Part shown: piece after piece, positions 9,322-24,392 of the stretch
How positions within the stretch are numbered: the stretch's first letter is position 1
Layout: every line of letters begins with the position of its first letter
Virus record (IMG/VR): IMGVR_UViG_3300029911_000144
Span: 1 to 24,392 of that record
DNA: 24,392 nucleotides
Reading direction: 5' to 3' (one strand)
Source of the DNA: a virus
Notes under the pieces: model-generated
Told to the model about the DNA's origin: nothing
Databases searched by the model: none
Seen by the model: only the letters and a program-made list of their open reading frames with translations
Made by a program: the position numbers and the translations under genes

Positions 9322-9325
9322 CGGA

Positions 9326-9523
9326 CTAGGCTTTCCGGTACGAGTTGATGAGGCCGCCGACCGACGCCGCGTAGTACGCGACGTAGTCGCCCTCCGGCTG
9401 TTTCTCCGTGGCGGCGCAGAGCCGGTCGAATTTCCGGTTGGCCTCGTGCCGCGTGCAGTAGACGCTTTCGGTCGAATGCGCGAAGTGATTGCACACGACG
9501 AAGGTGAACATTTCATTTTCCAT
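9326..9523 (-). CDS. Small hypothetical protein, 65 aa
   Basis: Start at 9523 with GGAG seven bases upstream on the minus strand; an inner ATG at 9516 is possible. The chain contains 'VVCNHFAHSTESVYCTRHEA', where C, H, H, C and H could form a zinc site, but the spacing fits no standard finger. A Tyr-rich end ('DYVAYYAASVGGLINSYRKA') follows. It overlaps the upstream gene by 11 bases and lies 4 bases from the next one. Confidence 0.65.
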   Translation of the reverse strand: MENEMFTFVVCNHFAHSTESVYCTRHEANRKFDRLCAATEKQPEGDYVAYYAASVGGLINSYRKA

Positions 9524-12960: not shown

Positions 12961-13213
12961 CCTTCTCAAAGACGGCGCCCGCAAGCCGCGTATCCTCGGC
13001 GGCACATGCTACACCGCCAACAGCTACGACCGCAACGAAGTCACCGAACGCGGCGTCATGCCCGGGATGTGCTATGACCTCACGATCAGCGGCAACACGA
13101 GCTACACCGCTCGCCTGACCGAGGTCGAGATGCTGCGCACCATGCAGGAGTGGTTGACGCGCTACAACGCGCATCAGGATCAAAAGCGGAGGCATGCCCG
13201 TGTCTCCGCTTGA
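12953..13213 (+). CDS. Hypothetical protein, 86 aa
   Basis: GGAG eight bases before ATG 12953 fixes the start. The chain shows 'PRILGGTCYTANSYDRNEVT', 'GMCYDLTISGNTSYTARLTE' and a helix 'EMLRTMQEWLTRYNAHQ'. The beta-beta-helix order resembles small phage proteins that regulate a partner, but no family can be named. It overlaps the next gene by 14 bases. Confidence 0.6.
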   Translation: MADLLKDGARKPRILGGTCYTANSYDRNEVTERGVMPGMCYDLTISGNTSYTARLTEVEMLRTMQEWLTRYNAHQDQKRRHARVSA

Positions 13214-13373
13214 GGGCATCCCGGAGTACCTGAAAATTCCGCAGGACGAACGCAAGGCCGCGTGGGAGAAATTCCGCGCGGATCGGAAAGCTCTACCACC
13301 GGAAGCGCCGCCGGCTATCAGGCGCATCACCGATCTGCCCGGAGCAAAGCACCATGACGACCCCGACGCTTGA
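13200..13373 (+). CDS. Small hypothetical protein, 57 aa
   Basis: GGAGG at 13188-13192 lies 7 bases before GTG 13200 but only 1 base before an in-frame ATG at 13194, so GTG is preferred. The product is basic and Pro-rich: 'EGIPEYLKIPQDERKAAWEK', 'RADRKALPPEAPPAIRRITD'. The helix in the middle may be a binding peptide; the rest looks unstructured. Overlaps the next gene by 20 bases. Confidence 0.5.
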   Translation: MSPLEGIPEYLKIPQDERKAAWEKFRADRKALPPEAPPAIRRITDLPGAKHHDDPDA

Positions 13374-13734
13374 AGATACCATCCGCAGTCTCGCTGCCCG
13401 AGGGGAGATTTCGCATATCTCGCTTACCCCATCGCAGGGGGGCAGGATGTGGCGCGCATCGTTCACGATGTGCTCGCACTTTGGCGTCAGCTTCGCCGAG
13501 GACAAGGACCCGGTCGAAGCGCTCATGCTCGCGTTCACGAGCGCGAAGCTCAAGAAGCCTCGGGCCACGCTCAACCTGAAACCGGAGCCTGAGCCGGTTG
13601 ACGCGAGCGACACCAACGATGCGGATGGACCCGCCCCGGGAAACCCGATCGCGCCGCCGGCCAATGTTGATGGCGGCGTCACGATCGACTGGAGCACGGG
13701 GCAGGCGATCGACCCCCTCAGCGACTTGATGTAG
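13354..13734 (+). CDS. Hypothetical protein, 126 aa, structured N-terminus and disordered acidic tail
   Basis: GGAG eight bases before ATG 13354. Residues 1-75 look folded ('EISHISLTPSQGGRMWRASF', 'GVSFAEDKDPVEALMLAFTS'), a strand-strand-helix plan that resembles small phage proteins of unknown role. The C-terminal 45 residues are Pro-, Asp- and Glu-rich and probably disordered ('PEPEPVDASDTNDADGPAPG'). It is the last gene before the promoter of the tagged array. Confidence 0.65.
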   Translation: MTTPTLEDTIRSLAARGEISHISLTPSQGGRMWRASFTMCSHFGVSFAEDKDPVEALMLAFTSAKLKKPRATLNLKPEPEPVDASDTNDADGPAPGNPIAPPANVDGGVTIDWSTGQAIDPLSDLM

Positions 13735-13742
13735 TCGGGGGC

Positions 13743-13781
13743 TAATTCCCAGTTGTCTCCGGGAACGTTGCGCGCTAAGTT
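13743..13781 (+). promoter_or_regulatory. Promoter, TAATTCCCAGTTGTCYC class, copy 1
   Basis: TAATTCCCAGTTGTCT at 13743-13758 holds a -35 TTGTCT (13753-13758); 17 bases later is TAAGTT (13776-13781). The same box and 17-base spacing recur at 18978-19016. Transcription would start near 13788, upstream of the first gene of the tagged array region. Confidence 0.6.
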
Positions 13782-13807
13782 CAACGCCCAATCGCCACCC
13801 GGAGACA
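13754..13807. promoter_or_regulatory. 10-bp inverted repeat covering promoter and ribosome-binding site
   Basis: TGTCTCCGGG (13754-13763) and CCCGGAGACA (13798-13807) are perfect reverse complements. The left arm overlaps the -35 region; the right arm contains the GGAG ribosome site of the gene at 13813. A transcript from upstream would fold and hide the ribosome site; a transcript started at this promoter lacks the left arm. As DNA it may also be an operator. Confidence 0.5.
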
Positions 13808-13812
13808 CGCCC

Positions 13813-14061
13813 ATGGCCCGCCTCAAAGCCAAGACCCGCAACAAGCTCCCCGCCTCGAAGTTCGGCCTGCCCGGTGCCAAGGGCAAAGGCAAAGCCAAGG
13901 GCAAATACCCGATGCCCGACAAGGCCCATGCGGCGGACGCCGAGGGCCGGGCGACCCAGATGGTCGCGAAGGGCAAGCTGTCTCCCGAGCAGGCCTCGAA
14001 GATCAAGCACAAAGCTGAAGCGGTCCTCGGCAAGCACGACTGCAAGTATCACAACTGTTGA
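13813..14061 (+). CDS. Small basic protein, DUF6582-like, 82 aa
   Basis: ATG 13813 with GGAG upstream; longer in-frame starts would extend into the promoter. The pattern 'LPASKFGLPG' - K/G-rich linker - 'KYPMPDKAHAADAEGRATQM' - 'LSPEQASKIKHKAEAVLG' matches a small domain (DUF6582-like) found in phage structural and morphogenesis regions, often C-terminal to larger proteins and with the sequence 'YPIxDxxHAxxALAR'. Function unknown. Lys- and Gly-rich insertion 'GAKGKGKAKGKY' looks like a flexible arm. First gene of the transcript that carries the tagged array. Confidence 0.65.
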   Translation: MARLKAKTRNKLPASKFGLPGAKGKGKAKGKYPMPDKAHAADAEGRATQMVAKGKLSPEQASKIKHKAEAVLGKHDCKYHNC

Positions 14062-14073
14062 TCGGAACGCGCC

Positions 14074-14568
14074 ATGGCAAAAGACGCCCTCGGACACGGT
14101 AGCGAAGGACGCGGCGCGCATGCGGGCGCGGTCGCACGTGTCGGCTTGCAAAATCCCGACCACCCGATCTACAACACGGCGCAGAAGATGCGCGGCTACA
14201 ACGGCCCGATCTCGCCGCTCAATGCTGACTACAGCACGGGCGGCAAGATGCTGCGGGATCGCACGAGTGGCATGACAAAGGATGAGCACATGGCTGCGGG
14301 CGATCAACACGCCCAGCAATCGGCATCACTTCGAAGTGCCCATGGCGATGTCGTTGACAGGGCGATGCATAGCCTTCAAGGGCGCGACCCCGGCCCGCTG
14401 ATCTCCGGCATCGTCTCGGACAAGTTCTCGGCCGGCGACAAGAACTCGCTGCGCAGCTTGGCTGTCGGCTCCGGCAAACACATGAGCGCAGCGTTCGCGC
14501 ACTACGCCGCCGCTGGAATGCGGATCGGCACCGCACGCACGCGGTTTCACTCAGTAAGGGGTACATGA
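14074..14568 (+). CDS. Tagged-array protein 1, 164 aa
   Basis: Begins MAKDALGHGSEG, the array tag with an inserted Ala. The rest is hydrophilic with small residues, 'YNTAQKMRGYNGPISPLNAD', and a helical C-terminal half ('DQHAQQSASLRSAHGDVVDR', 'SAAFAHYAAAGMRIG'). No Cys. It lacks the P-V-H-D-S-M motif. The composition (Gly, Ser, His, few hydrophobics in the first half) suggests a flexible, soluble protein. The next gene starts 1 base after its stop. Function unknown. Confidence 0.7.
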   Translation: MAKDALGHGSEGRGAHAGAVARVGLQNPDHPIYNTAQKMRGYNGPISPLNADYSTGGKMLRDRTSGMTKDEHMAAGDQHAQQSASLRSAHGDVVDRAMHSLQGRDPGPLISGIVSDKFSAGDKNSLRSLAVGSGKHMSAAFAHYAAAGMRIGTARTRFHSVRGT

Positions 14569-14569
14569 C

Positions 14570-15100
14570 ATGAAGGACGCACTCGGACACGGATCAAATG
14601 GCAAGGGCGGCGCACAGACGCCCGTGCAACAGGAGAACGCTCCGTTCAAGTCTCGGCTTCCGGGGAAATCGTATCTTGATCCTAACGATCCACGCAATCC
14701 TGCCAACCTCAAGATGACAGCCACCCAACAGCGAAAGTCGGGCGCGGAAGACGCGGCGTTTGACGGCACCAAGGGGCTCCACTCCGCTGGAGTGCAGAGC
14801 ACCCCGCAGTTGCAGCGTCGGCACTTCGAAGCCATCGCAGCCGATCTGAAGGCGCAGGCTCCAAAGTCGTGGGGCGACAACAGCTCCAAGGCGAACTCGG
14901 ACGCGAACGGCGCACACATGGCCAAAGTCAATGATGTCGCGGACAAGCTCGCGATGACCAACCCGGGCTTCCGCCGAGATTTCTTCGTCAAGGCGGCGAC
15001 GCCGGGCGGCGCGTACAATAACAAATCGCGCGAGCGATCGGCGACGAAACCGGGCTTCGCGTCGAAAGTGAGCAGGGCGAAGAAATTCGCGGGGATGTGA
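14570..15100 (+). CDS. Tagged-array protein 2, 176 aa
   Basis: Begins MKDALGHGSNG with AAGGGG upstream. The body is hydrophilic: 'QQENAPFKSRLPGKSYLDPN', 'TPQLQRRHFEAIAADLKAQA', 'KVNDVADKLAMTNPGFRRDF', ending in a basic helix 'KPGFASKVSRAKKFAGM'. It has no Cys and no membrane segment. The helical core around 'LQRRHFEAIAADLKA' is the only part that looks stably folded. Longest protein of the array. Function unknown. Confidence 0.75.
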   Translation: MKDALGHGSNGKGGAQTPVQQENAPFKSRLPGKSYLDPNDPRNPANLKMTATQQRKSGAEDAAFDGTKGLHSAGVQSTPQLQRRHFEAIAADLKAQAPKSWGDNSSKANSDANGAHMAKVNDVADKLAMTNPGFRRDFFVKAATPGGAYNNKSRERSATKPGFASKVSRAKKFAGM

Positions 15101-15103
15101 GCC

Positions 15104-15424
15104 ATGAAGGACGCACTCGGACACGGAAGTAACGGCGTCGGCGCGCAGCTTCGGCAGCGGATCGATGCGGATCGGCATATGTTCGGCGGACCCCGTCCGA
15201 CGCTCCTGCGCGACAACACGTCGAACGCGCAGGCCGCGCAATCGCTCATGGGCAGCTTGAAGTCCACCATGGTCCCCGTGCACGACAGCATGGCCGGCCG
15301 CGCATCGAACCCGACCTCGCAACGCGGGCCGACTGATCTGGGCAACCGGATCAGGTCCGCTGTAGGGCGCGGATCGAACTCGGAAGATCGCGCGGCGTTC
15401 GCCGCATGGAACGGACTGAAATGA
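15104..15424 (+). CDS. Tagged-array protein 3, 106 aa
   Basis: Begins MKDALGHGSNG, 3 bases after the previous stop. It carries the second array motif around residues 47-64 ('QAAQSLMGSLKSTMVPVHDS', then M), and a third Gly/Ser-rich stretch 'RIRSAVGRGSNSEDRAAFAA'. The N-terminal tag and the P-V-H-D-S-M motif are about 45 residues apart, joined by 'LRQRIDADRHMFGGPRPT'. No Cys. Function unknown. Overlaps the next gene by 4 bases. Confidence 0.7.
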   Translation: MKDALGHGSNGVGAQLRQRIDADRHMFGGPRPTLLRDNTSNAQAAQSLMGSLKSTMVPVHDSMAGRASNPTSQRGPTDLGNRIRSAVGRGSNSEDRAAFAAWNGLK

Positions 15425-15603
15425 AACGGCACAAGCGGGTCACGAACAAAGACGCGGCGAGAGAGCTTTCGAGCGGCTACGGCCCGGCCCCGGTTCACCC
15501 CGCAATGGTTTCCATGGCGACGGTCTACGCGGCGGACAAGGACCCGGCTGCAAACGCAACGGATGCATCGGATGACACGGACGACCAAGGCGGAAGTGAC
15601 TGA
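15421..15603 (+). CDS. Array protein with second motif but no tag, 60 aa
   Basis: ATGA overlap at 15421 (a longer ATG at 15406 is in frame). It lacks the GHGS tag and starts MKRHKRVTNKD, then shows a version of the second motif: 'DAARELSSGYGPAPVHPAMV'. An acidic tail follows ('DASDDTDDQGGSD'). So the second motif can stand alone. Overlaps the next gene's GTG start by 8 bases. Confidence 0.6.
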   Translation: MKRHKRVTNKDAARELSSGYGPAPVHPAMVSMATVYAADKDPAANATDASDDTDDQGGSD

Positions 15604-15754
15604 TCAGGACGTGAAGGTCCATCTCGCGCTCGGCGGCGGCAAATCTCACGAGGCGCCGATCCATCCTGCGATGATCGGCAAAGGGCAGAACAAACTCGAA
15701 GTCGGCTCAACTCTGGGCTATGGCATCGGATCAGCGATAGGATCGGGCACATGA
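15596..15754 (+). CDS. Array protein with degenerate second motif, 52 aa
   Basis: GTG 15596, five bases after AAGG, overlaps the upstream stop by 8 bases; ATG 15563 and 15572 are alternatives with no ribosome site. The body carries a short form of the second motif, 'LALGGGKSHEAPIHPAMIGK', and ends in a Gly/Ser-rich stretch 'STLGYGIGSAIGSGT' that is mildly hydrophobic. No tag. The end overlaps the next tagged gene by 4 bases. Confidence 0.5.
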   Translation: MTDQDVKVHLALGGGKSHEAPIHPAMIGKGQNKLEVGSTLGYGIGSAIGSGT

Positions 15755-16224
15755 AAGACGCACTCGGACACGGAAGCAACGGCGGCTGGGGCCAGCATCC
15801 CGCCACCGGAAAGCTGAAGACCGCTTCGAAGTATCAGTCGTTCAACGGACGCAAGGACGCCGTCGTCCGGACCGAGCGTATGCCAGCCGGACATCTCTGG
15901 CAGCATGGAAATCAGTATGGCTACGCCAACAGCGTGGCCGACGCCAAGGCGACCGTCGAGAGCCGCGTTGCCGACGAAGACCGATACAAGACGCACGAGC
16001 CGGTCACCACGTCACAGTTCGACGGACCGCGCGAGCGGTCGGGGCTGGGCAACGCGACGCACAACGAGAACGGTCACGCATGGGGATCGCCCGAGGCGCT
16101 GAAAGACTTCAAGGACAAATACAACCGGGGCCGTGCCGAGGGCAACGCGAAGAACCGGGCAGAAGGCAAAGCGTTCCGCAGTGCCAAGGGCGAGATCAAC
16201 CGTCTCCGCAAGCAGGGGAAGTGA
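15751..16224 (+). CDS. Tagged-array protein 6, 157 aa
   Basis: Begins MKDALGHGSNG; the first 33 bases are identical to those of the gene at 18295. The body contains 'YQSFNGRKDAVVRTERMPAG' and 'HLWQHGNQYGYANSVADAKA', which look like a beta-helix fold, and the module 'SQFDGPRERSGLG' (residues about 89-101), followed by 'ALKDFKDKYNRGRAEGNAKN' and a basic helix. The module and the following D-F-K segment recur in the next gene. No P-V-H-D-S-M motif. Function unknown. Confidence 0.75.
   Translation: MKDALGHGSNGGWGQHPATGKLKTASKYQSFNGRKDAVVRTERMPAGHLWQHGNQYGYANSVADAKATVESRVADEDRYKTHEPVTTSQFDGPRERSGLGNATHNENGHAWGSPEALKDFKDKYNRGRAEGNAKNRAEGKAFRSAKGEINRLRKQGK
16015..16050 (+). repeat. 36-bp direct repeat, copy 1
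   Basis: Identical over 36 bases to 16460-16495. It encodes Q-F-D-G-P-R-E-R-S-G-L-G in both genes and in the same frame. Perfect identity, unlike the diverged tag copies, points to recent duplication or gene conversion. Confidence 0.85.
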
Positions 16225-16225
16225 C

Positions 16226-16651
16226 ATGGCGAAAGACGCAAAAGGCCACGGGTCCAACAGCCACGACTATAGCGGCGTCAAGACCTATCCAGCTATCACA
16301 GGCTTCGAAGGTCTCCGCAAGTCGCTCAATCTGGACGCTCTTCAAGCGGGCGGTCAGCCGGTCTCTGGCAACGCCAACGCAGCTCACGAGCTTTCGAGCG
16401 GCGGTCCGAAGTCGGTAGCGTCTCCGGTCCATGACAGCATGGTCGGCGCGAACGTGTCGCAGTTCGACGGACCGCGCGAGCGGTCGGGGCTGGGCGCGCA
16501 CGACCAAGCGGTCAAGGATTTCAAAGAGGGTCGGATGACGCACGGCGACATCCCGCCTCGGACCCCGTCCGAGCGAAACGTCAAGGCTCTCAATGAGAGC
16601 ACGGGCTACCGCATTCGCAACGGCACCCTTCGCGGCAAACCCGGGAAATAA
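16226..16651 (+). CDS. Tagged-array protein 7, 141 aa, carries three modules
   Basis: Begins MAKDAKGHGSNS. It then has a helical segment 'GFEGLRKSLNLDALQAGGQP', the second motif 'NAAHELSSGGPKSVASPVHD' plus SM, and the third module 'SQFDGPRERSGLG' followed by 'QAVKDFKEGRMTHGDIPPRT'. It is the only gene with tag, second motif and third module together. The end is basic and Gly-rich. No Cys. Function unknown. The start lies 1 base after the preceding stop. Confidence 0.75.
   Translation: MAKDAKGHGSNSHDYSGVKTYPAITGFEGLRKSLNLDALQAGGQPVSGNANAAHELSSGGPKSVASPVHDSMVGANVSQFDGPRERSGLGAHDQAVKDFKEGRMTHGDIPPRTPSERNVKALNESTGYRIRNGTLRGKPGK
16460..16495 (+). repeat. 36-bp direct repeat, copy 2
   Basis: Identical to 16015-16050, 445 bases apart, in the same reading frame of a neighbouring array gene. 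Confidence 0.85.
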
Positions 16652-16664
16652 CGGAGCAAGTGAC

Positions 16665-17156
16665 ATGAAAGACGCAAAAGGTCACGGCAGCAATGAGCGC
16701 GGCGGCACCAAGCCGAACGCAAAGGGCATGCGGCTCATCAAGACCCATGTGCTCGGGCCGCACTCAGCGAAGGTCTACAACAATCCCGAGTGGGGTGAGA
16801 AGGTCGTGCAGACGTTCCGCAACGGCGTCTATCAGTCGAAGAACGACTATCACACCGACGATCTCGCGGACGCGCATGCGACCGCGCAATCGCAGTTGAA
16901 GCGCTGGGATGATCAAGATGGCGGCGGTGGCATGATGGGGGCCATGAAGGCCAAGCTTTCCGACGATATCGCCGCCGGCCGCATGCTGAGCAGCGGCGGC
17001 CCGAAGTCGGCGGCGGTTCCGATCCACGACAGCATGCAATCCGCGTCTCGCGCGTTCTCGGACAAGAATAACGAAAAGTGGGGCTCGTATGCTAACGTCG
17101 GGAACGCAAAGGCGAATGACGCCGTGTTCGGTTCCGGACGGCACAAGCTCACGTAG
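16665..17156 (+). CDS. Tagged-array protein 8, 163 aa
   Basis: Begins MKDAKGHGSNE; GGAG lies upstream. The body has a strand-rich part ('MRLIKTHVLGPHSAKVYNNP', 'KVVQTFRNGVYQSKNDYHTD') with an aromatic, Asn-rich look similar to the middle of protein 6, then a helix 'DLADAHATAQSQLKRW', the second motif 'LSSGGPKSAAVPIHDSMQSA', and a polar tail. No Cys. The N-terminal half may be the same fold as in protein 6, with low identity. Function unknown. Confidence 0.75.
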   Translation: MKDAKGHGSNERGGTKPNAKGMRLIKTHVLGPHSAKVYNNPEWGEKVVQTFRNGVYQSKNDYHTDDLADAHATAQSQLKRWDDQDGGGGMMGAMKAKLSDDIAAGRMLSSGGPKSAAVPIHDSMQSASRAFSDKNNEKWGSYANVGNAKANDAVFGSGRHKLT

Positions 17157-17168
17157 GGGCAGCACGAG

Positions 17169-17423
17169 ATGAAAAACGTTCGCGGTACATCGGGGACGAA
17201 CCGGCTCGCTGACGAGGGGGCGCGCGGCTTTGTGACGGCTCCCGGAGTGCGCGGCTTCGCCACGTCCACACAGAACACCGACGCGGCCAACGAGCTGGCC
17301 AGCGGCCCGAAGTCGCGCATGGTACCGGTTCACGACAGCATGAGCGGCTACAACGGCGTGCCGGTCCCGAGCGATAACATTCAGGACATGGCGCGGCAGC
17401 GCGGATATCAGGCGGCATCATAA
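17169..17423 (+). CDS. Array protein with second motif and altered start, 84 aa
   Basis: The N-terminus MKNVRGTSGTNR is a weak echo of the tag; GHGS is absent. The second motif is complete: 'DAANELASGPKSRMVPVHDS' plus M. The C-terminus 'PSDNIQDMARQRGYQAAS' is helical. GGGG lies upstream of ATG 17169. It shares one base with the next gene (TAATG). Function unknown. Confidence 0.7.
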   Translation: MKNVRGTSGTNRLADEGARGFVTAPGVRGFATSTQNTDAANELASGPKSRMVPVHDSMSGYNGVPVPSDNIQDMARQRGYQAAS

Positions 17424-17644
17424 TGGCACCAATGCAACGGATTTCCAAGCCGACCCACTCGGTCGGGGTCACGATCGCCGTCCCGCATACGCGGTTCGCG
17501 CCGACGCCGAATATGTCGCCGCTGGAGATCGCGTTCCGGAAGGGACAAGAGGCTAAGCGCCTCGGCCGTCCGGCGGAGAACCCGCACACGGACAATGAAG
17601 TGGGCGAGCTTGCAAAAGAATGGGAACGGGGATATGGGTCATGA
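17423..17644 (+). CDS. Small hypothetical protein in the array, 73 aa
   Basis: TAATG overlap at 17423. It has none of the array modules. The N-terminal 30 residues are Pro- and Thr-rich; the C-terminal half is a charged helix ('SPLEIAFRKGQEAKRLGRPA', 'DNEVGELAKEWERGYGS'). The pattern 'F-x-x-G-x-E-A-x-x-x-G' with a terminal 'W-x-x-GY' is common in small proteins of bacteria and phages, where it is thought to bind DNA or protein. Function unknown. Confidence 0.6.
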   Translation: MAPMQRISKPTHSVGVTIAVPHTRFAPTPNMSPLEIAFRKGQEAKRLGRPAENPHTDNEVGELAKEWERGYGS

Positions 17645-17835
17645 ACATGATTTGGGTAACAGCGCCGAACGGGGTCAGGTTCGAGATCGACCCCGAGAAG
17701 ATCAGCGTCCTTGAGCCGGCTCAGCCGGGCATGTACGCGCCGGGAGCGAAGGCGGTTTTTCGCGTCGATGGCGAGATGCATGCAGTCAAAGAAACCGTCG
17801 CTCAAATCGACACCATGCGTGGGGCGGGAAAATGA
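17641..17835 (+). CDS. Small protein with FlbD-like pattern, 64 aa
   Basis: ATGA overlap at 17641. The sequence reads 'MIWVTAPNGVRFEIDPEKIS' then VLEP, and after a linker 'AVFRVDGEMHAVKETVAQID'. This strand-strand-strand-helix plan, with 'I-x-V-T-x-x-x-G' at the start, 'I-x-x-x-E' in the middle and 'V-K-E-T' near the end, resembles the FlbD family, small flagellar-linked proteins; similar small proteins also occur in phages. Homology cannot be tested here. None of the array modules is present. It overlaps the next tagged gene by 4 bases. Confidence 0.6.
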   Translation: MNMIWVTAPNGVRFEIDPEKISVLEPAQPGMYAPGAKAVFRVDGEMHAVKETVAQIDTMRGAGK

Positions 17836-18047
17836 AGGACGCTCTGGGGCACGGGAGCGTGAGCAATGCGGACGCGGCGAATGCGCTTGCGAGCGGCGCG
17901 AAGTCGGCGATCGTTCCAGTCCATGCTAGTATGAGCGAGGACACTGCACTCGAAATATCGCGGCTCGAACGCCGCGCGTATGAGAACGTTAGACGGAAAG
18001 CAGCTTCGCAACAGTTGGGCGAAGCGTGGAAGGGGCTAGGTCAATGA
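17832..18047 (+). CDS. Tagged-array protein 12, minimal three-module protein, 71 aa
   Basis: Three modules fill the whole length: the tag MKDALGHGS, the second motif 'DAANALASGAKSAIVPVHAS' plus M, and a helical C-terminal module 'LEISRLERRAYENVRRK' - 'ASQQLGEAWKGLGQ'. The last aligns with residues 9-41 of the leftward gene at 9151-9321 (about 20 of 33 identical). Coupled to the upstream gene by ATGA and to the next by ATGA. It shows that array proteins are assembled from interchangeable parts. Function unknown. Confidence 0.75.
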   Translation: MKDALGHGSVSNADAANALASGAKSAIVPVHASMSEDTALEISRLERRAYENVRRKAASQQLGEAWKGLGQ

Positions 18048-18298
18048 AGGACGCTCTGGGACACGGCAGCAACCCGCAAGGCTTGATGGTCGCGCACCAA
18101 ACGGGAGTGCGTAAGGCGATCGGCTTCAAGGTCGAGAAGCATCTCGCGTTCTCCGGCAGAACGGCCGCCGGCCAGCGCAACCTCGCGACCGGCAACGTCT
18201 GGGGCAAGGTCGCTGGCGGCAAGCGGCGCGCGGTCGCGGAGAAGATCGCGATGGGCGCGCGAATTGACAACCCGAACTCAAGGATCAGGATCAGATGA
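18044..18298 (+). CDS. Tagged-array protein 13, 84 aa, basic
   Basis: Begins MKDALGHGSNP; ATG 18044 is chosen over an earlier in-frame ATG at 18026 because the tag then starts the protein. The rest is strongly basic with helical character: 'TGVRKAIGFKVEKHLAFSGR', 'GKVAGGKRRAVAEKIAMGAR'. It has no second motif. A basic body of this type could bind nucleic acid. ATGA overlaps at both ends. Function unknown. Confidence 0.7.
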   Translation: MKDALGHGSNPQGLMVAHQTGVRKAIGFKVEKHLAFSGRTAAGQRNLATGNVWGKVAGGKRRAVAEKIAMGARIDNPNSRIRIR

Positions 18299-18750
18299 AA
18301 GACGCACTCGGACACGGAAGCAACGGCCTGCACGCGGGCGGCGTCAACAAGATCGGCAATCTCCCGGTCCACCCGAACGCGCTGCGCACGATCCAGAAGA
18401 ACCCATGGGGCGCGAGCGTGAAGCCGCAGACCGGTGTCTCGCCGACGACCGGGTACATGGTTTCGATACAGGGCCGCACTCAGAGCCCGACCTCGGCGGC
18501 GCTCGCCGGTCCGCAGGGTGCGAGCATCATTCGCGACTACGCGCGCAACAACTCCGATCTGTTGCAGAAGCCTGACATGCACATCGGGAGCTGGGCCGAC
18601 GAAACCGGTCGCACGCATCTCGACGTGTCGCAGAACATCCCTGATCGCGCGACTGCTGTCCAAGAGGGGCGTCGTCGCAATCAACAGGGTATCTGGGATG
18701 TTGCCCGCAAGAAGTTCATCGGCACGGGCGGCACGGGAGACGCGGCATGA
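18295..18750 (+). CDS. Tagged-array protein 14, 151 aa
   Basis: Begins MKDALGHGSNG, base-identical to protein 6 over the first 33 bases. A weak relic of the second motif may be 'NLPVHPNAL' at about residue 24. The central part ('TSAALAGPQGASIIRDYARN') and 'DETGRTHLDVSQNIPDRATA' followed by 'VQEGRRRNQQGIWDVARKKF' resemble a short sequence seen in phage and bacterial proteins in which 'HLDVSQN' and 'A-x-x-x-GRxRNQxAIWD' co-occur; no function is known to me. No Cys. Confidence 0.7.
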   Translation: MKDALGHGSNGLHAGGVNKIGNLPVHPNALRTIQKNPWGASVKPQTGVSPTTGYMVSIQGRTQSPTSAALAGPQGASIIRDYARNNSDLLQKPDMHIGSWADETGRTHLDVSQNIPDRATAVQEGRRRNQQGIWDVARKKFIGTGGTGDAA

Positions 18751-18980
18751 TCAGTGCAACGAAGAGCCACGTGAAGTGGGATCGCGGCAATCGGAGTGTG
18801 ACCGATGACGAAGCTGCTGACGTTCTTGCAAATGGCCATCCGAAGAGTGGTCCGCCGAGTTTTCCTGAGCCCGCTAAAGTTCTGCCGGGCGCGCCGGGCG
18901 CTGGCGCGGCTCCGGGCGCGAACGGCCCGCCTACGACAGGCGCGTCGGTAGGTCCGGGCGGGCCATTGGGTTCGATCTAA
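18747..18980 (+). CDS. Array-end protein, 77 aa, Gly/Pro-rich tail
   Basis: ATGA overlap at 18747. No tag. Residues about 20-36 ('DDEAADVLANGHPKSGPP') match the first half of the second motif (A-A-x-x-L-x-x-G-x-P-K-S), after which the P-V-H-D-S-M part is lost and a Gly/Pro/Ala-rich tail follows. It is the last gene before the promoter at 18978, which overlaps its stop codon. Function unknown. Confidence 0.6.
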   Translation: MISATKSHVKWDRGNRSVTDDEAADVLANGHPKSGPPSFPEPAKVLPGAPGAGAAPGANGPPTTGASVGPGGPLGSI

Positions 18981-19016
18981 TTCCCAGTTGTCCCGGAGAA
19001 GCTCTCCGCGTATGCT
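18978..19016 (+). promoter_or_regulatory. Promoter, TAATTCCCAGTTGTCYC class, copy 2
   Basis: TAATTCCCAGTTGTCC at 18978-18993 with -35 TTGTCC (18988-18993), 17 bases, -10 TATGCT (19011-19016). The distance from AATT to the -10 is the same as in copy 1 at 13743. The spacer holds a small perfect hairpin, CGGAGA-AGC-TCTCCG (18994-19008). Confidence 0.65.
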
Positions 19017-19053
19017 TGCGAAAGAAATTCCAACTATCGCAAGGATTATGCAC

Positions 19054-19422
19054 ATGGCACTTCGTGGCTCAGGCGTTGTAGCAAAGACCATCGATCCCCC
19101 GATGCAGGATCGCATCTCCAACAGCCCCGTCGATCCGCGCGCTGGCGCCGCCAAGCGGACCCAGACCAAGTTTCCGGTCAAGCCGGGCATGACCGATATG
19201 GTCAAGGGCTCCGTGTCATCGTTCGCCGGCCCGAAGAACCCGGGCGTCGGCCCGGATGCCTCCAGCTCCAATCCGCTTGACCCGTCGCCGACCGACAAGA
19301 TTTTGCGTCGGCAGCCGCAGGAGATCAAGTCCTCGTGGGGCATGGTGGACGCCAACGGTCAGTCGGTCAATGGCAACCTCGGCAAGGCCATCCTCGACGA
19401 AGCCGGCCGCCTCGGCCGCTAA
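19054..19422 (+). CDS. Hypothetical protein, 122 aa, Pro/Gly-rich
   Basis: AAGGA at 19041-19045 lies 8 bases before ATG 19054 and too close to ATG 19048, so the former is chosen; longer in-frame starts would cover the promoter. The protein is low in hydrophobic residues: 'GVVAKTIDPPMQDRISNSPV', 'TKFPVKPGMTDMVKGSVSSF', 'LRRQPQEIKSSWGMVDANGQ'. It looks largely disordered with a helical end 'NLGKAILDEAGRLGR'. No Cys. First gene behind its promoter. Family not recognised. Confidence 0.7.
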   Translation: MALRGSGVVAKTIDPPMQDRISNSPVDPRAGAAKRTQTKFPVKPGMTDMVKGSVSSFAGPKNPGVGPDASSSNPLDPSPTDKILRRQPQEIKSSWGMVDANGQSVNGNLGKAILDEAGRLGR

Positions 19423-19425
19423 CCC

Positions 19426-19566
19426 ATGCCAACCCCCGCATGCTCGTGGCAAACCTTCTGCGGCTTCTTTCTCGCCGCATTCGGGGCCGCGACAGGTTGG
19501 GGGATGGGCCTCTTCGTTGTGGCCCAAGTCACGCGAGCCATCGTGCGGCTGTTCGGCCTAACCTGA
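19426..19566 (+). CDS. Membrane microprotein, 46 aa
   Basis: Starts 3 bases after the preceding stop, with no strong ribosome site. One long hydrophobic region (residues about 10-34, 'TFCGFFLAAFGAATGWGMGL' then FVVAQV) and a basic end 'TRAIVRLFGLT'. Two Cys near the N-terminus. It compares in size and plan with the microprotein at 3805-3945. Function unknown; holin-like behaviour is possible but unsupported. Confidence 0.5.
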   Translation: MPTPACSWQTFCGFFLAAFGAATGWGMGLFVVAQVTRAIVRLFGLT

Positions 19567-19578
19567 AAAGAGACGACC

Positions 19579-19863
19579 ATGGCGATTGATGTAGTCGGAA
19601 GCAAAATGAAGTCGGACAATGGCTATGGCCAGAACGGCTATAGTGGAAGTTCGAGCGATCTCCCCGGCCAGCACACTACCTCCGGCTTTCTGCCGCAGGC
19701 CACTGTGCCAGCCGACTGGGGCCAGACGCGCCCCATGTCCGCCGAGCAGAAGGTGCCGACCACGAAGGGCATGCGCTCGCGTAGTGGCGAAGGCGGAGTG
19801 ATCCCGGCCGCCAATACCCGGCGTGCGGCCAAGCCCGCGCCCAATCGTTCGTTCCAACGGTAA
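19579..19863 (+). CDS. Hypothetical protein, 94 aa, low-complexity
   Basis: ATG 19579 follows a GAGA site, 12 bases after the previous stop. The chain is rich in Gly, Ser, Asn and Gln: 'NGYGQNGYSGSSSDLPGQHT', then 'SAEQKVPTTKGMRSRSGEGG' and a basic end 'RRAAKPAPNRSFQR'. It seems unstructured, with no Cys. Similar composition is found in small phage virion proteins, but I have no family to name. Confidence 0.6.
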   Translation: MAIDVVGSKMKSDNGYGQNGYSGSSSDLPGQHTTSGFLPQATVPADWGQTRPMSAEQKVPTTKGMRSRSGEGGVIPAANTRRAAKPAPNRSFQR

Positions 19864-19868
19864 CACTT

Positions 19869-19893
19869 CCGGGGCGCTACGCGCCTCGGTTTC
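19869..19893 (+). terminator. Possible weak intrinsic terminator
   Basis: Hairpin CCGGGGCGC (19869-19877), loop TAC, GCGCCTCGG (19881-19889), nine pairs with one G-T, then TTTC. The T-run is short, so termination may be partial. It lies between the genes at 19579 and 19921. Confidence 0.35.
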
Positions 19894-19920
19894 AACAGTC
19901 CCGACCATGGAGAGCCCAAA

Positions 19921-20232
19921 GTGTTGAAACTCGCATCGCTGTCCCTCGCTGCGCTTCTCTCCGTCGCTTCCCCCGTCCTCGCCAAGCCCCCGATCGCTGC
20001 GCCGCCCACGGCGAAGTGCATCGCACCGACCAAGTTTCCAGACACCATCCGCGTCGAAGGCGCCGCTCTCGTCAAGCTCCGAGAGATCGCTCGCGGGCTC
20101 CCGGATCAAGTCGATCTCGTGCTTCTGCTCAAGACCGCTCCCGTCGCCGTCGCCTTCGTCAACGGCTGCGCGGTCGGCTTCGGGCAGCTCGCTCCCCTCG
20201 GGCTGAAACCCGCCGATGATGGAGCGATCTGA
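19921..20232 (+). CDS. Secreted or periplasmic protein, 103 aa
   Basis: GTG 19921 with GGAGAG upstream. The N-terminus is a Sec signal peptide ('MLKLASLSLAALLSVASPVL' then A), with a likely cleavage after ALA-type 'VLA' near residue 21. The mature part has two Cys ('AKCIAPTKF', 'NGCAVGFG') about 80 bases of coding apart from each other's ends, suited to one disulfide, and a helix 'GAALVKLREIARGLPDQVDL'. It is the second exported small protein of the window (compare 11668). Role at the envelope is inferred. Confidence 0.7.
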   Translation: MLKLASLSLAALLSVASPVLAKPPIAAPPTAKCIAPTKFPDTIRVEGAALVKLREIARGLPDQVDLVLLLKTAPVAVAFVNGCAVGFGQLAPLGLKPADDGAI

Positions 20233-20233
20233 G

Positions 20234-20386
20234 ATGGCCGAGAAAAATAACACGTGCGCTCCGTCGAGTTACGAGAAGCGCCTCCAGCGGCAGCTCGCGG
20301 GTATCGAGAAGCATCTGGAAAATTTCCCGAATGACAAGCTGAGCCAGATGCGCGCAGCTACAATCCGATCGGAGCTATCAAAATGA
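20234..20386 (+). CDS. Small charged helical protein, 50 aa
   Basis: GGAG lies 9 bases before ATG 20234, and its stop overlaps the next start (ATGA at 20383). The product is a single long helical stretch ('YEKRLQRQLAGIEKHLENFP' followed by 'NDKLSQMRAATIRSELSK'), with the heptad spacing of a coiled coil. One Cys near the N-terminus. Phage proteins of this plan can be small scaffolds or adaptor subunits, but none is recognised. Confidence 0.6.
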   Translation: MAEKNNTCAPSSYEKRLQRQLAGIEKHLENFPNDKLSQMRAATIRSELSK

Positions 20387-20649
20387 GTTGGTCGATCTCA
20401 AAAATGGGGCTCTCGAAGCCCGTCCTCGCCGCGATCAAGAAAGAGCGCGCCACTACGGAGATGAGCGAGCCCGAACAGCTCGTCAGAGACCTCGTCGTCG
20501 GCGCGATCAAGCTCGCGCTCCGCGACATGCCGGATGATATGCCGGTCGAGATTTCCGCAAGCGGAAGTCAGTCCGATGTCGGCGACGGTACGTCAGTGAA
20601 TTCGTTCACGGTCACCGTCACGCCGAAGTGGGGCTTCCTGAGCAAGTGA
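20383..20649 (+). CDS. Small phage protein ending in a beta-rich region, 88 aa
   Basis: ATGA overlap. The N-terminus 'MSWSISKMGLSKPVLAAIKK' is followed by a helix 'EPEQLVRDLVVGAIKLALRD' and a strand-rich end 'VEISASGSQSDVGDGTSVNS' - 'FTVTVTPKWGFLSK'. This plan, an 'MSWS' start and a C-terminal 'ASGS' and 'V-x-P-x-WGF', is seen in small proteins of other tailed phages without assigned function. It is the last gene before the packaging module. Confidence 0.65.
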   Translation: MSWSISKMGLSKPVLAAIKKERATTEMSEPEQLVRDLVVGAIKLALRDMPDDMPVEISASGSQSDVGDGTSVNSFTVTVTPKWGFLSK

Positions 20650-20724
20650 TACAGAACCTCGGATGTAGCTGAGCTGCACCCGACGTTTCGTATCAGAATT
20701 ACGCGAGCGCGCATGTGCGCCTCC

Positions 20725-20741
20725 CATCGGCTGGGCCGATG
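20725..20741 (+). promoter_or_regulatory. Perfect hairpin in the leader before the terminase genes
   Basis: CATCGGC-TGG-GCCGATG, seven pairs with a 3-base loop. It lies 24 bases upstream of the start at 20765 inside the otherwise empty gap 20650-20764. No T-run follows, so it is more likely a leader structure or protein-binding site than a terminator. I see no clear promoter in this gap. Confidence 0.4.
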
Positions 20742-20764
20742 CACGACTATTGGAGGATATCCGC

Positions 20765-21589
20765 ATGAGCGGCATTGATGACACCGATCTCGCTGATCTT
20801 CTCGGCCCCGATCCACTCGGTGCCGAAGCCGAAGAAATTCTAGTTGATGTGACCCCGCCGAAATCGCGTCCCATGGGCGCAGCGAGCCGAGGCGTCCTAG
20901 AACGATCGCGCAGCTACCCCGTCAACGCTGCCGCCCGAGCAAGGCTCCCTGACCGCCTCAGCCGTCTGCTCAAGAACATCTCTGAAATCCCGATCGCAAC
21001 GGACGCCGCGCGCCGCGCCGGCATTAGCCTGTCCCAGCTCAAGTATATGCTGCAAAAATCCAAGGAGGGTCGCTCCGGGGACGGGTATGACGTGGCCCTT
21101 CCGGAAGGCGAAGATAACGGCACCCCCGATAACACCGAACGGTTTCACGTCGTGTGGGAAGATGCGATGAGTGAAGGCCTCGGCAAAGCAGAGACGGCCG
21201 CGTGGGCTCTCGGGGTCGGCTTCAACGAAATCCAAGCTCACAAGGGTCGTGTCCAATACCGAATTGACCCGGAGAAGTACGATCTGTTCGTTCTGCTCGG
21301 CGACCCCATTGACGAGCGCAACCCGAGCCTATGGCTTCGCGATGAAGTTGGGGCTCCAGTCCCCGAGACAATCTTCAAGCAGGACCCGGATATGCTCCGG
21401 TGGCTGCTCGAAAACCGCAAGCCGAAGGAATATGGCAAGCGAGCTGCTCTCGATCTGAATGTTACGGGCGGTGTTCTCGTGGTCGGTATGAAGGCGGCTA
21501 CGTCGGAAGAGCTAAACGAAATCGAAACCGAATATCGCAAGGTCGGTCGTCCCGCCGTCACGTTCGAAGAGAGCGACGGGGACGTGTAA
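20765..21589 (+). CDS. Putative terminase small subunit, 274 aa
   Basis: GGAGG lies 9 bases before ATG 20765; a TTG at 20750 is in frame but would contain the ribosome site. A first helix-turn-helix-like segment is 'ATDAARRAGISLSQLKYMLQ' (residues about 78-97) and a second 'AETAAWALGVGFNEIQAHKG' (about 142-161). Near residue 213, 'LLENRKPKEYGKR' matches a motif typical of small terminases. The family recognises pac or cos DNA and hands it to the large subunit. The gene overlaps the large-subunit start by one base (TAATG), the usual order. The subunit identity rests on context plus motif. Confidence 0.75.
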   Translation: MSGIDDTDLADLLGPDPLGAEAEEILVDVTPPKSRPMGAASRGVLERSRSYPVNAAARARLPDRLSRLLKNISEIPIATDAARRAGISLSQLKYMLQKSKEGRSGDGYDVALPEGEDNGTPDNTERFHVVWEDAMSEGLGKAETAAWALGVGFNEIQAHKGRVQYRIDPEKYDLFVLLGDPIDERNPSLWLRDEVGAPVPETIFKQDPDMLRWLLENRKPKEYGKRAALDLNVTGGVLVVGMKAATSEELNEIETEYRKVGRPAVTFEESDGDV

Positions 21590-23178
21590 TGGGTTTTCCT
21601 TGCGTAGCAAAATTTGTCCAAGATAGGAATGGGGCTTACGTCCCATACTATCTTGACGACGACAATGTACTCAGGGCCGCGATTTGGTGCCCGCAACCGG
21701 GTTCGCAGGAGTTCTTTCTGGCGGACCCGACGATGGAAGTTCTCTACGAGGGCACGCGCGGCCCCGGCAAAACTGACGCGCTCATCATGGACTTCTGTCA
21801 GGATGTTGGCAAGGGCTGGGGCGCGGAGTGGAAGGGCATTCTGTTTCGACAATCGCATCCGCAGTTGCGCGACATCATTGAGAAGTCGAAGAAATGGATC
21901 AAGCGCATTTGGCCGGATGCGATCTACAACGAAGTCAAGACGATGTGGGAGTGGCGGACAGGCGAGCGCCTGTACTTTGCCCACTTCAATGTCCGAAGCG
22001 ACTATGACAACTATCACGGCCACGCTTATCCGTGGATTGGTTGGGAAGAGTTGACGAACTGGCCGAGCCCGGACTGCTATATCAGCATGTTCTCGTGCTC
22101 GCGTTCGACGATCAAAGGGATGCCGCGCAAGGTGCGCGCGACGACGAACCCCTATGGCGTCGGGCATAACTGGGTCAAGGCACGTTGGCGGCTGCCGATC
22201 AACGGCGAGACGATCAACGGCCGCAAGCCGACAGTCGGTCCGCTCATTCAGGATAGCGTTGATGCGGCGGGTAACAAAGAGCCGCCGCGCCGCGCCATCC
22301 ACGGCTACCTCGACGAGAACGTGCTGTTGCTGCATGCCGACCCCGAGTACAAGAACAAGATTAAAGCGGCAGCCCGGAACGCATCCGAACTCGCGGCGTG
22401 GATGGATGGCTCGTGGGACATCGTCGCGGGCGGCATGTTCGACGACATCTGGTATGAGCACAAAGACGCGATCGTCATGCCCCCATTCGACGTGCCGCCG
22501 GGATGGAAAATTTATCGGGCCTATGACCACGGCTCATCGAAGCCGTTCTCGGTTGGCTGGTACGCCGCCAGCGATGGCACCGATCTGAAGCTACGCGATG
22601 GGCGCACGCGCGCGACCGTGCGCGGCGACCTCTTCCGTATCCACGAATGGTACGGCTGGCGTGGTCAGCCGAACGAAGGCGCTCGATTGTTGGTCCCGGA
22701 TATCGCGAGGGGCATCATTGAGCGCGAGATCAAATGGGGCCTCCGTGATCCGCAGGGCACGTGGACCCGCGTGAGCCGGGGGCCAGCCGATAGTTCGATC
22801 TTCGACGCCGATCAGAAGGCGACGACCGTGTCGATCGCCGACGACTTCGAGAAGCCGGTTACGATCAACGGGATCAAGTTCAAGGGTATTTTCTGGGAGC
22901 GCGCTGACAAGGGTCCGGGCTCCCGCGAGCAAGGATGGGAGCAAATCCGCAAGCGGCTCAAGGCGACCAAACGTCCGCCCGGCGGCTTCCGGGAGACCCC
23001 CGGGCTGTTCATCACGACGGACTGCCCGCAATGGCTCCGGTGCGTGCCTGTGCTTCCACGGGACGAAACCGAAATCGATGACGTAGACGACGACGCGGAA
23101 GATCATAACGGCGATGAAACTCGGTACATGCTCCGCCACGAGATCAGGACAACACGGTCGGGCCGCGTGGCGGCCTGA
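21589..23178 (+). CDS. terL: Terminase large subunit, 529 aa
   Basis: The motor that packs phage DNA into the procapsid. ATPase: Walker A 'GTRGPGKT' (residues 55-62), Walker B 'YPWIGWEE' (147-154) with catalytic Glu. RNase H-like nuclease: 'AYDHGSSKP' with Asp313, and 'ADSSIFDAD' with Asp401. Near the C-terminus 'ADKGPGSREQGW' and 'AEDHNGDETRYML' are typical of this subfamily. Length is normal for the family. ATG 21589 shares a base with the upstream stop and has GGGGA upstream; the frame extends further upstream only as a shadow of the small subunit. All key motifs are intact. Confidence 0.95.
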   Translation: MGFPCVAKFVQDRNGAYVPYYLDDDNVLRAAIWCPQPGSQEFFLADPTMEVLYEGTRGPGKTDALIMDFCQDVGKGWGAEWKGILFRQSHPQLRDIIEKSKKWIKRIWPDAIYNEVKTMWEWRTGERLYFAHFNVRSDYDNYHGHAYPWIGWEELTNWPSPDCYISMFSCSRSTIKGMPRKVRATTNPYGVGHNWVKARWRLPINGETINGRKPTVGPLIQDSVDAAGNKEPPRRAIHGYLDENVLLLHADPEYKNKIKAAARNASELAAWMDGSWDIVAGGMFDDIWYEHKDAIVMPPFDVPPGWKIYRAYDHGSSKPFSVGWYAASDGTDLKLRDGRTRATVRGDLFRIHEWYGWRGQPNEGARLLVPDIARGIIEREIKWGLRDPQGTWTRVSRGPADSSIFDADQKATTVSIADDFEKPVTINGIKFKGIFWERADKGPGSREQGWEQIRKRLKATKRPPGGFRETPGLFITTDCPQWLRCVPVLPRDETEIDDVDDDAEDHNGDETRYMLRHEIRTTRSGRVAA

Positions 23179-23252: not shown

Positions 23253-24392
23253 ATGGCACTTCCCGACAAGCACCCCGAGTACGTAGAGAGGCTGGGCGAA
23301 TGGCTCCAGCTTTCGGACACCTATCAGGGCGAGCGCGCCGTCAAGTCGAAGCGGCTTGACTACCTGCCCGCGACCGAGGGAATGGTGCAGGACGGGATGA
23401 CCACGCCCAGCTCCCCGGGCTGGCGCGACTACGAAGCGTACTTGATGCGCGCCTACTTCCACGACGTTGTCAAGGAAGCTGTCAAAGCCATGGTTGGCAT
23501 CATGCACAACAAGCCCGCCGTGATCACGCTGCCCCCGCGCCTCGCCGGCATGATCGACCGGGCGACGATCCAAGGCGAAGGGCTCCAGATGTTGCTCCGC
23601 CGGATCAACGTCTCGCAACTCCTGTACGGCCGCTGCGGTCTTCTCGCGGACGCGCCGCAGGGCGTCGATATCGACAAGGCAACTCCCTACCTGTCTTTCT
23701 ACGAACCGATGCGGATCATCAACTGGGACGCCGGGCGCCTCAATGAGGGCCGCAACGAACTCGATCTCGTCGTGCTCGACGAAAGCGGCTTCCGCCGTGA
23801 GGGCTTCACGTGGAAGACCGAACGCAAGTATCGCGTGCTGACGCGCGGCGGCCCGGAGAGCCTTGAGAGCGGCTGGGAACGACCGCCGGAGGGCTCGCCG
23901 TATTGCGTGGCCGTGAAGGTCAACGACAGCTCCATGCCCGTCATGGAGGACTTCATTCAGCCGTCGATCGGTGGGCGCACGCTCCCGGCGGTTCCGTTCG
24001 TCTTCATCGGCGCCAACGATCTCGTACCCGAGCCCGAAGTGTCCCCGCTTCTCGGCCTGTCGAACCTCGCGCTCGCAATCTACCGAGCCGAGGCCGACTA
24101 CAGGCAAACGCTGTTCGCGCAGGGACAGGCCACACTCGTCATCATCAACGGCAACGTTGACGATGCGGCCCCCGACAAACTGCGCACCGGCTACAAAGGC
24201 GTCATCGATCTGCGCATGGGCGGCGACGCGAAGTATATCGGCGTGCCCGCCGCCGGGCTCGGCGAGATGCGTCAGTCGCTCAAGAGTGATATCGATGCCG
24301 CCGCTCTGGCGGGCATCGCGTTCTTGGACGTAGGCAACGCGCGCGGCGAGAGCGGCGAAGCTCTGCGCATCCGCGTCGCGGCGCGCACGACC
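23253..24392 (+). CDS. Portal protein, DUF4055-type, partial (first 380 aa)
   Basis: Open from ATG 23253 (GGAAGGA upstream) to the right edge. The portal forms the dodecameric ring at the capsid vertex through which DNA enters and leaves. Features typical of the DUF4055 family: 'HPEYVERLGEWLQLSDTYQG' near the start, 'YLPATEGM', 'DYEAYLMRAYFHDVVKEAVK' followed by 'AMVGIMHNKPAVI', 'LYGRCGLLADAPQG', 'PVPFVFIGAND'-like 'LPAVPFVFIGANDL', and the helix 'ALAIYRAEADYRQTLFAQGQ'. Its place right after the large terminase supports the call. The C-terminus is outside the window. Confidence 0.85.
   Translation, partial: MALPDKHPEYVERLGEWLQLSDTYQGERAVKSKRLDYLPATEGMVQDGMTTPSSPGWRDYEAYLMRAYFHDVVKEAVKAMVGIMHNKPAVITLPPRLAGMIDRATIQGEGLQMLLRRINVSQLLYGRCGLLADAPQGVDIDKATPYLSFYEPMRIINWDAGRLNEGRNELDLVVLDESGFRREGFTWKTERKYRVLTRGGPESLESGWERPPEGSPYCVAVKVNDSSMPVMEDFIQPSIGGRTLPAVPFVFIGANDLVPEPEVSPLLGLSNLALAIYRAEADYRQTLFAQGQATLVIINGNVDDAAPDKLRTGYKGVIDLRMGGDAKYIGVPAAGLGEMRQSLKSDIDAAALAGIAFLDVGNARGESGEALRIRVAARTT

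Follow-up and report, generated by a model that had tools for sequence, protein, structure and literature searches.

Nine small genes headed by one peptide

The window analysed here is the whole 24,392-nucleotide (nt) contig of virus record IMGVR_UViG_3300029911_000144 (G+C 62%), and our subject is an array of small genes at 14074–18750 whose products share a short N-terminal peptide, hereafter called the tag (Table 1). From the list of open reading frames (ORFs) and the codons of the tag, it is clear that nine neighbouring ORFs start with M(A)KDA[LK]GHGS, as had been claimed from the sequence without database searches (the sequence-only reading), and the sizes given there for the nine proteins, 71–176 amino acids (aa), are also correct. 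Such a peptide, heading many unrelated small proteins in uncultured bacterial viruses, is probably an address label for virion loading. Six of the eight gaps between successive tagged genes measure only −4 to 13 nt, so that these genes are probably co-transcribed; the other two gaps (326 and 675 nt) are occupied by the five untagged small ORFs of the array interval (starting at 15406, 15563, 17169, 17423 and 17620).

Selection acts at the level of the peptide. The nine tags of the window have 8 DNA spellings, and their pairwise codon differences comprise 120 synonymous versus 14 non-synonymous ones, all 14 of which fall on one variable residue (x); the sequence-only claim of selection on the peptide is thereby borne out. 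Across contigs, the 219 tag instances of a regular-expression (regex) scan represent 186 DNA spellings of 10 peptides, an invariance that is partly imposed since the regex fixed most of the conserved residues. Most of this bias is removed by a relaxed scan scored over the 7 fixed residues, in which all 256 places retaining 6 or 7 of them lie within 4 codons of a start codon; for places scoring 5 of 7, the count is 6 of 20. Departures in the relaxed scan occur mainly at the third residue of the tag (A, P, K, Q, S, E or R), together with a few H-to-R changes, and the residue preceding the K is M in 178, A in 34, P in 4, S in 2 and G in 1 of the 219 regex instances. Tags of one locus have the same variable residue more frequently than chance predicts (0.57 versus 0.33, a value reached in 0 of 1000 permutations), which would fit co-evolution with a receptor, but also plain common descent. 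In the structural model of the protein encoded by 18295–18750, tag residues 1–18 have a predicted local distance difference test score (pLDDT) below 50, that is, predicted disorder, and are followed by a confident domain; the last residues are also of low confidence.

The proteins behind the tag are diverse. The 256 unique complete tagged proteins, with a median length of 125 aa, fall into 75 similarity groups, 54 of which are singletons; group 0 (80 members) is a lump chained via short common motifs and not one family, and two members of the set, each with a single tag in a metagenome-assembled genome (MAG), one of Planctomycetales and one of Luminiphilus, are probably due to chance. When 21 group profiles were run on the tagged phages, 203 of the 241 hits carried the tag; 16 of the 38 untagged hits lie at an edge, and the other 22 include degenerate tags, broken frames and some apparently truly untagged proteins.

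Table 1. Genes and other elements of the window (positions in nt, counted from its first letter)
Feature	Position	Strand	Remarks
24-nt element, copy 1 (putative late promoter)	13742..13765	+	ahead of the array
Tagged gene 1	14074..14568	+	164 aa, start MAKDALGHGS, MAKDALGHGSEGRG; 3-member similarity group
Tagged gene 2	14570..15100	+	176 aa; 17-member group, reference copy is a near-identical L039 gene
Tagged gene 3	15104..15424	+	106 aa; PVHDSM motif
Untagged array ORF	15406..15603	+	variant PVHPAM motif
Untagged array ORF	15563..15754	+	variant PIHPAM motif
Tagged gene 4	15751..16224	+	157 aa; 40-nt stretch in common with gene 5
Tagged gene 5	16226..16651	+	141 aa, MAKDAKGHGS; PVHDSM motif
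Tagged gene 6	16665..17156	+	163 aa; phrog_7884 relative, PHROG E 2.3e-13
Untagged array ORF	17169..17423	+	PVHDSM motif
Tagged gene 7	17832..18047	+	71 aa; PVHASM motif
Tagged gene 8	18044..18298	+	84 aa; 15-member group
Tagged gene 9	18295..18750	+	151 aa; family profile hits part of the internal virion proteins of cyanophages
24-nt element, copy 2	18977..19000	+	between the array and the terminase genes
Terminase small subunit (TerS)	20750..21589	+	G020 counterpart 27.7% to RDJL3 TerS, E 3e-15
Terminase large subunit (TerL)	21589..23178	+	60.6% to RDJL3 TerL
Portal protein	23253..24392	+	truncated by contig end; DUF4055 E 1.4e-8; G020 copy PHROG portal E 1e-102

Distribution of the tag in phages and hosts

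The pattern MKDAxGHGS was found in 82 IMG/VR stretches and in 9 stretches of genome contigs. For the TerL and tag searches, 50 loci (49 records) were used, and at least 2 tags are present in 46 of the 49 records, a figure that is biased upward because the loci left out are mainly single-match stretches. The tag thus occurs as multi-gene arrays in other phages, the outcome for which the sequence-only reading had proposed to look, with up to 12 tagged genes in one record. A relative of the window's TerL, at 50–100% identity, is present in 45 of the 49 records; the tag is present in all 49, but these were selected for having it. The closest cultured terminase to this TerL is that of Roseobacter phage RDJL3 (Table 1), followed by those of Abidjanvirus-type Pseudomonas phages. 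No such tag occurs in the fetched stretches of RDJL3 and Ab18 (the latter covered in part), and tblastn with the tag peptide gave one weak match at E 10, the query being too short to exclude cultured carriers. Window DNA 13500–19500 had no match when searched against phages. The strings KDAKGHGS, KDALGHGS and GHGSNARGG, as well as any report of such a tag array, were not found in the openly licensed literature of PubMed Central (PMC), a scope outside which most subscription journals lie.

Scanning with MAKDxxGHGS added 13 further loci, one of whose matches is internal to a long ORF and probably due to chance. Some of the added loci are single tags in other phages, one lying between portal-like and scaffold-like genes and some directly ahead of terminase-like genes, as judged by eye. 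Single tagged genes beside such portal- or terminase-like genes are those at L118:4694, L117:13271, L119:1587, L122:1895 and L124:8036 (L numbers denote fetched loci), and no relative of the window's TerL or portal was detected in the fetched stretch of any of these five phages.

Occurrence mainly on unrelated host proteins was the outcome that the sequence-only reading had set against itself. Among 397 Hyphomicrobiales genomes, the relaxed DNA pattern MKDxxGHGS matched in only 4, three of them with a single match and the fourth, the centre MAG, with two matches on one contig. A host-protein tag was rejected on this count, since the only other matches in the 397 genomes are those three single ones; as far as these sequences go, the tag belongs to phages and not to hosts, the centre MAG being alone in having more than one match. 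Two of the nine genome-contig stretches are contigs of Hyphomicrobiales MAGs with two tags each, and the binning of these two carriers hints at the hosts.

Tagged genes lie among the late genes

The sequence-only reading had placed the array between a class II promoter and the packaging genes. The right-hand side of this placement stands, as the genes for both terminase subunits and the portal follow the array (Table 1). In all 23 records whose tags and TerL are both among the matches listed, the main tag cluster stands ahead of TerL and in the same orientation, a count that contains several near-copies and three records with the window's TerL at 100%; the nearest tag is about 1.6 to 6.3 kb from TerL.

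The left-hand side fared differently, and the class II promoter was not confirmed: sigma-70-like sites within 13000–21000 are at chance level (1 found versus a mean of 1.2 in shuffles), so that a sigma-70 promoter was rejected. Another repeated element is present instead. The 24-nt sequence CTAATTCCCAGTTGTCYCSGRGAA occurs at 13742–13765 and 18977–19000, and nowhere else in the window with 3 or fewer mismatches (0.00 expected); its first copy ends 308 nt ahead of the first tagged start codon. Copies of the 15-nt core of the element, with 0–2 mismatches, also occur in relatives. In both G014 and G027, one starts about 180 nt ahead of the major head gene; a tail-tube-like gene is preceded by one at 152 nt in G027 and at about 1 kb in G014; and in G014, as in the window phage, one starts 327–339 nt ahead of the first tag. 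Further copies of the core have no recognised gene behind them. Since copies precede major head and tail genes in relatives, the element is a putative late promoter.

Tagged genes are also present at a second place, within the tail operon. In G040, a tagged gene that resembles ADP-ribosyltransferases (ARTs) directly follows the tape-measure gene, and a tagged ParB-like gene stands one gene further on, before an 857-aa gene; the matching place holds two tagged ART or ART-like genes in G014 and one in G035. One of the G014 genes is an ART-PolyVal by Pfam (E 1.5e-9); the G040 gene, which has no Pfam match, is ART-like by eye. With PHROG profiles, the genes for the tape measure (E 6e-18) and the major head protein (1e-100) were identified in G040, and those for scaffold (1e-38) and portal (1e-102) in G020.

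Tagged proteins are basic and nearly free of cysteine

The 256 tagged proteins contain 0.38 cysteines per 1000 residues (250 of the 256 are cysteine-free) and carry a net charge of +4.5 per 100 residues, values close to those of the internal proteins IPI–IPIII of phage T4 (0 cysteines, +3.9 charges per 100 residues). Non-structural sets have 16.6 (12 window ORFs left of the array), 12.2 (45 small RDJL3 proteins) and 13.5 (17 T4 proteins) cysteines per 1000, three structural sets 2.4, 4.0 and 5.2, and terminases 8.7. Within the same loci, the value is 16.4 in 710 conserved untagged ORFs versus 0.60 in 162 tagged ones, and cysteine-free proteins are enriched among the latter with a Fisher p of 2e-52, n being inflated by relatedness; the untagged control includes shadow ORFs, and its charge is uninformative. 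Three cyanophage proteins annotated as internal virion proteins, from P60, S-CBP42 and Syn5, contain 0, 0 and 1 cysteines in 1415–1639 aa. By analogy with these three proteins and the T4 internal proteins, all of them cysteine-poor, cysteine depletion may be a sign of oxidising virion life or of passage through the tail.

Predicted activities and a family shared with internal virion proteins

Domain scans were made on 180 of the 198 cluster representatives, the 18 left out being mostly short. At E ≤0.01, Pfam assigned ART-PolyVal to 4 representatives, Arr-ms to 1 and Acetyltransf_1 (GNAT) to 2, with weaker matches to ParB_N (1, below the Pfam cut-off) and Peptidase_M57 (1, E 0.0027). Further ART-like and HEIGH-type motifs were noticed by eye among the tagged proteins; assignments by eye of group 9 as an acetyltransferase and of group 12 as an ART were dropped for lack of Pfam support. 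The best fold matches of a tagged ART model are ART-fold structures (top MbcT, E 7.6e-4), which support the assignment but do not prove it, since the pLDDT of the model is only 65. Searches against phages gave no match for one tagged ART, a zincin-like tagged protein and genes 14074 and 16665 (named by their first position).

Gene 18295–18750 belongs to the largest clean group (29 members), whose profile matches the internal virion proteins of P60 (2.9e-13), S-CBP42 (1.2e-10) and Syn5 (1.5e-7), named as annotated. It also matches small proteins of Gordonia and Rhodococcus phages that lack the tag; reversed controls of the profile searches against internal virion proteins gave no matches. The predicted fold is found again in other viral proteins, some of them large, with lengths of up to 1102 aa (one is named Zeta toxin and one XkdF), and others small and standalone. 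No match to this gene was found in the PDB by sequence, nor by fold at E 0.001, and none in plasmids.

A probable set of virion-stored, ejected proteins

Taken together, the composition, the late-gene context, the cargo domains, the homology to internal virion proteins and the predicted disordered tag before a folded domain best support the view that KDxxGHGS[N/D/E]xRGG is a flexible N-terminal cargo tag, and that the virion stores the tagged proteins and later ejects them into the host, a conclusion that we hold to be likely. Computation directly shows the tag and its N-terminal position, selection at the peptide level, the occurrence of the tag on many unrelated proteins, the late-gene context, the composition and, in some members, enzyme domains; packaging, receptor, ejection and a role in the host are what we infer. 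The tagged proteins would be made late, from a promoter that the 24-nt element suggests is shared with the capsid genes, and the disordered tag would recruit them to a head, portal or tail component, most likely in the prohead interior and otherwise in the portal or tail lumen. They would then be stored in the virion with the DNA and ejected with it into the next host cell, where the cargo domains point to an early host-modifying or anti-defence action. The array could thus be pictured as a swappable set of mostly single-domain cargo genes, as if a polyvalent protein had been split into genes with one address label.

Several observations weigh against this cargo interpretation. Most of the 180 scanned representatives have no Pfam match or recognised function, and among the 21 group profiles only that of the gene 18295 group matched the tested internal virion proteins, the other 20 giving none. 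The 24-nt element is absent, at 2 or fewer mismatches, from seven fetched loci (L100–L104, L022 and L055; five other tagged records). As to composition, the ordinary structural proteins of these phages are acidic; the untagged array ORFs of the window are cysteine-free as well (5 of 5) and have little net charge, so that freedom from cysteine is not tied to the tag alone; the untagged actinophage homologues of gene 18295 are cysteine-free and acidic, which makes it partly a family trait; and the cyanophage internal virion proteins are acidic, so that positive charge is not required for ejection. In addition, the T4-type cleavage motif [LIV]xE occurs in the first 25 residues of only 3 of the 256 tagged proteins, versus 11.0 after shuffling (for [LI]xE and the first 14 residues, 1 of 256), and a tblastn search of eight fetched regions with the T4 protease gp21 had no match at E 1, although a diverged protease could escape so weak a test. 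On these grounds, T4-like cleavage of the tag is doubtful and was set aside. Co-packaged or ejected proteins with a targeting peptide of their own, as put forward in the sequence-only reading, are the best-supported explanation, without the T4-like removal of the peptide; with the cleavage motif so rare, the tag may stay on or be cut in another way.

Three other explanations, of which the sequence-only reading had named the first two as options, have been weighed against cargo. The tag could be a docking signal for assembly or chaperoning, by which late accessory factors bind scaffold, portal or terminase and leave before the virion is complete; any late morphogenesis role would fit the position of tagged genes beside the terminase genes and in the tail operon, as well as the 24-nt element held in common with head and tail genes. 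The T4-internal-protein-like composition, the host-modifying domain types and the high turnover of genes (54 of 75 groups being singletons) fit cargo better, however, and we consider docking unlikely. Smaller still is the chance that the tag marks late-made toxic proteins for a host protease or adaptor and so keeps them short-lived or times their activity. A short, predicted disordered N-terminal tag is what such a signal might look like, and some of the cargo enzymes could harm the producing cell, but the residue before the K varies, hence the N-terminus is not fixed, and a degron leaves both the lack of cysteine and the late-operon positions unexplained.

The shared 5′ end could, finally, be a DNA or RNA feature, such as a cassette recombination site or a translation signal, with the peptide as a by-product. 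Two findings are in keeping with this idea: parts of genes have been exchanged inside the array (a stretch of 40 nt with 98% identity), and gene 2 is distinguished from its G020 counterpart by a segment behind the tag and ahead of the domain. The excess of synonymous over non-synonymous tag differences in the window, the many spellings of few peptides across contigs (with the regex bias given above) and the tagged genes at a second, distant locus argue against it, and we regard it as very improbable, although recombination may help to shuffle cargo behind the tag.

Comparison with known systems

In T4 and P1, 10 and at most 30 N-terminal residues, respectively, suffice to load foreign proteins into the capsid, according to passages of PMC9026906 and PMC9024508. 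The capsid-targeting sequence (CTS) of T4 IPI–IPIII and Alt resembles the tag in being a short N-terminal peptide common to otherwise different small, basic, cysteine-free proteins, and an ADP-ribosyltransferase is found in both cargoes, namely Alt, as described in part of PMC9026906, and some of the tagged proteins. The peptides are unrelated, however (T4 ipII and ipIII start MKTYQEFIAEA, and ipI starts MKTFKEFTSTT), no gp21-type cleavage motif marks the tagged proteins, the terminase relatives found in the phage collection are of the RDJL3/Abidjanvirus kind and not of that of T4, and a single record has up to a dozen tagged genes. By analogy, the array would work like the T4 CTS system without being a member of it, because the peptide is unrelated and the cleavage motif is lacking.

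The P1 Dar proteins are likewise stored in the virion and ejected, and a reporter enters the capsid by virtue of the first 30 residues of DarB; the relevant passages of PMC9024508 describe no consensus among the Dar N-termini, in contrast to the one consensus found here on many proteins. With the polyvalent proteins of Iyer et al. 2017, the tagged proteins share the ART, GNAT, metallopeptidase and ParB-like classes and the portal–terminase context, as far as the part of PMC5512222 consulted describes them, and the gene 18295 fold recurs in large multidomain phage proteins; the tagged proteins are separate and small, however, and the Pfam matches viewed for individual proteins are to one domain class each, in place of a multidomain chain. 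The internal virion proteins of P60, S-CBP42 and Syn5 contain a segment homologous to gene 18295–18750 and are nearly free of cysteine, but they are acidic and far longer (see above), the segment is internal, and the scans made gave no tag-like start.

If the cargo interpretation holds, a start codon followed by KDxxGHGS would be a sequence rule for reading out probable ejected proteins, which are otherwise difficult to recognise from sequence, from metagenomes. The tag would also provide a new short handle with which to load proteins into the particles of tailed phages, and cargo sorting without the T4 prohead protease would become directly testable.

Further motifs and exchange within the array

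In addition to the tag, a second, internal motif of about AAxxLAxGxPKSxxVPVHDSM is common to several tagged proteins and the untagged ORF 17169–17423. In the window, PKSxxVPVHDSM lies at 15252–15298, 16401–16447, 16996–17042, 17302–17348 and 17893–17939, and within the fetched loci its strict form was counted in 34 tagged proteins plus 4 untagged ORFs. By a loose regex, 93 of the 256 tagged proteins, the product of gene 18295–18750 being an example, have a third motif, AHxxGVxxVG, which stands behind the tag at a distance that varies.

The 40-nt repeat mentioned above lies inside genes 4 and 5, at 16011 and 16456. The gene at 14570–15100 and its counterpart at L099:2070–2441 come from near-identical phages, yet they are distinguished by a segment inserted behind the tag and ahead of the domain; a similar segment follows a degenerate tag in L047 near 2427, as though exchange took place at the boundary of the tag. 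On the minus strand of the window, an ORF at 9151–9600 resembles by eye the C-terminus of tagged gene 17832–18047 (LELARLQRAAFENVRKRTAEQQLGLAW). The ORF at 18988–19422, between the array and the terminase genes, ends near WGMVDANGQSVNGNLGKAILDEAGRLGR, and its counterparts in L029, L038 and L060 read W(G/D)MKDANGxG.

A sister motif, M[TA][FY][DN]P..(E/P)xRDxxG[RKQ]W[TS]xGG, starts large proteins encoded in the portal-to-scaffold region of the same phages, such as L099:12281–14695 and 15126–16151, and others in L012, L053, L102, L103, L106 and elsewhere. Of the 20 regex hits to RDxxG[RKQ]W[TS]xGG, 16 are N-terminal; the remaining four include two within TerL. By eye, the 804-aa L099 protein with this motif ends in an ART-like sequence and HEIAH is present in the 341-aa one, but neither is recognised by Pfam. 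Tag and sister motif have [KR]DxxG followed by [HRKQ]x[ST] in common, too few residues to establish relatedness. It is tempting, though doubtful, to see KDxxGHGSxxRGG and RDxxG[RKQ]W[TS]xGG as two forms of one portable virion-loading code, by which an exchangeable arsenal of up to a dozen separate proteins would be loaded at the head, and possibly at the tail, without T4-type proteolysis, as a distributed alternative to polyvalent proteins.

Two observations concern the neighbouring head genes. The scaffold protein L099:16588–17436 has a C-terminal NPWxxxxWNLTxQG stretch that is repeated in the next ORF, L099:17503–17913, where it is perhaps a capsid-binding motif on a second protein; both match a scaffold-like protein of RDJL3. 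Between the scaffold and major head genes, L100:12968–15241 and 15287–16423 encode a collagen-like protein and a protein that is glycosyltransferase-like by eye.

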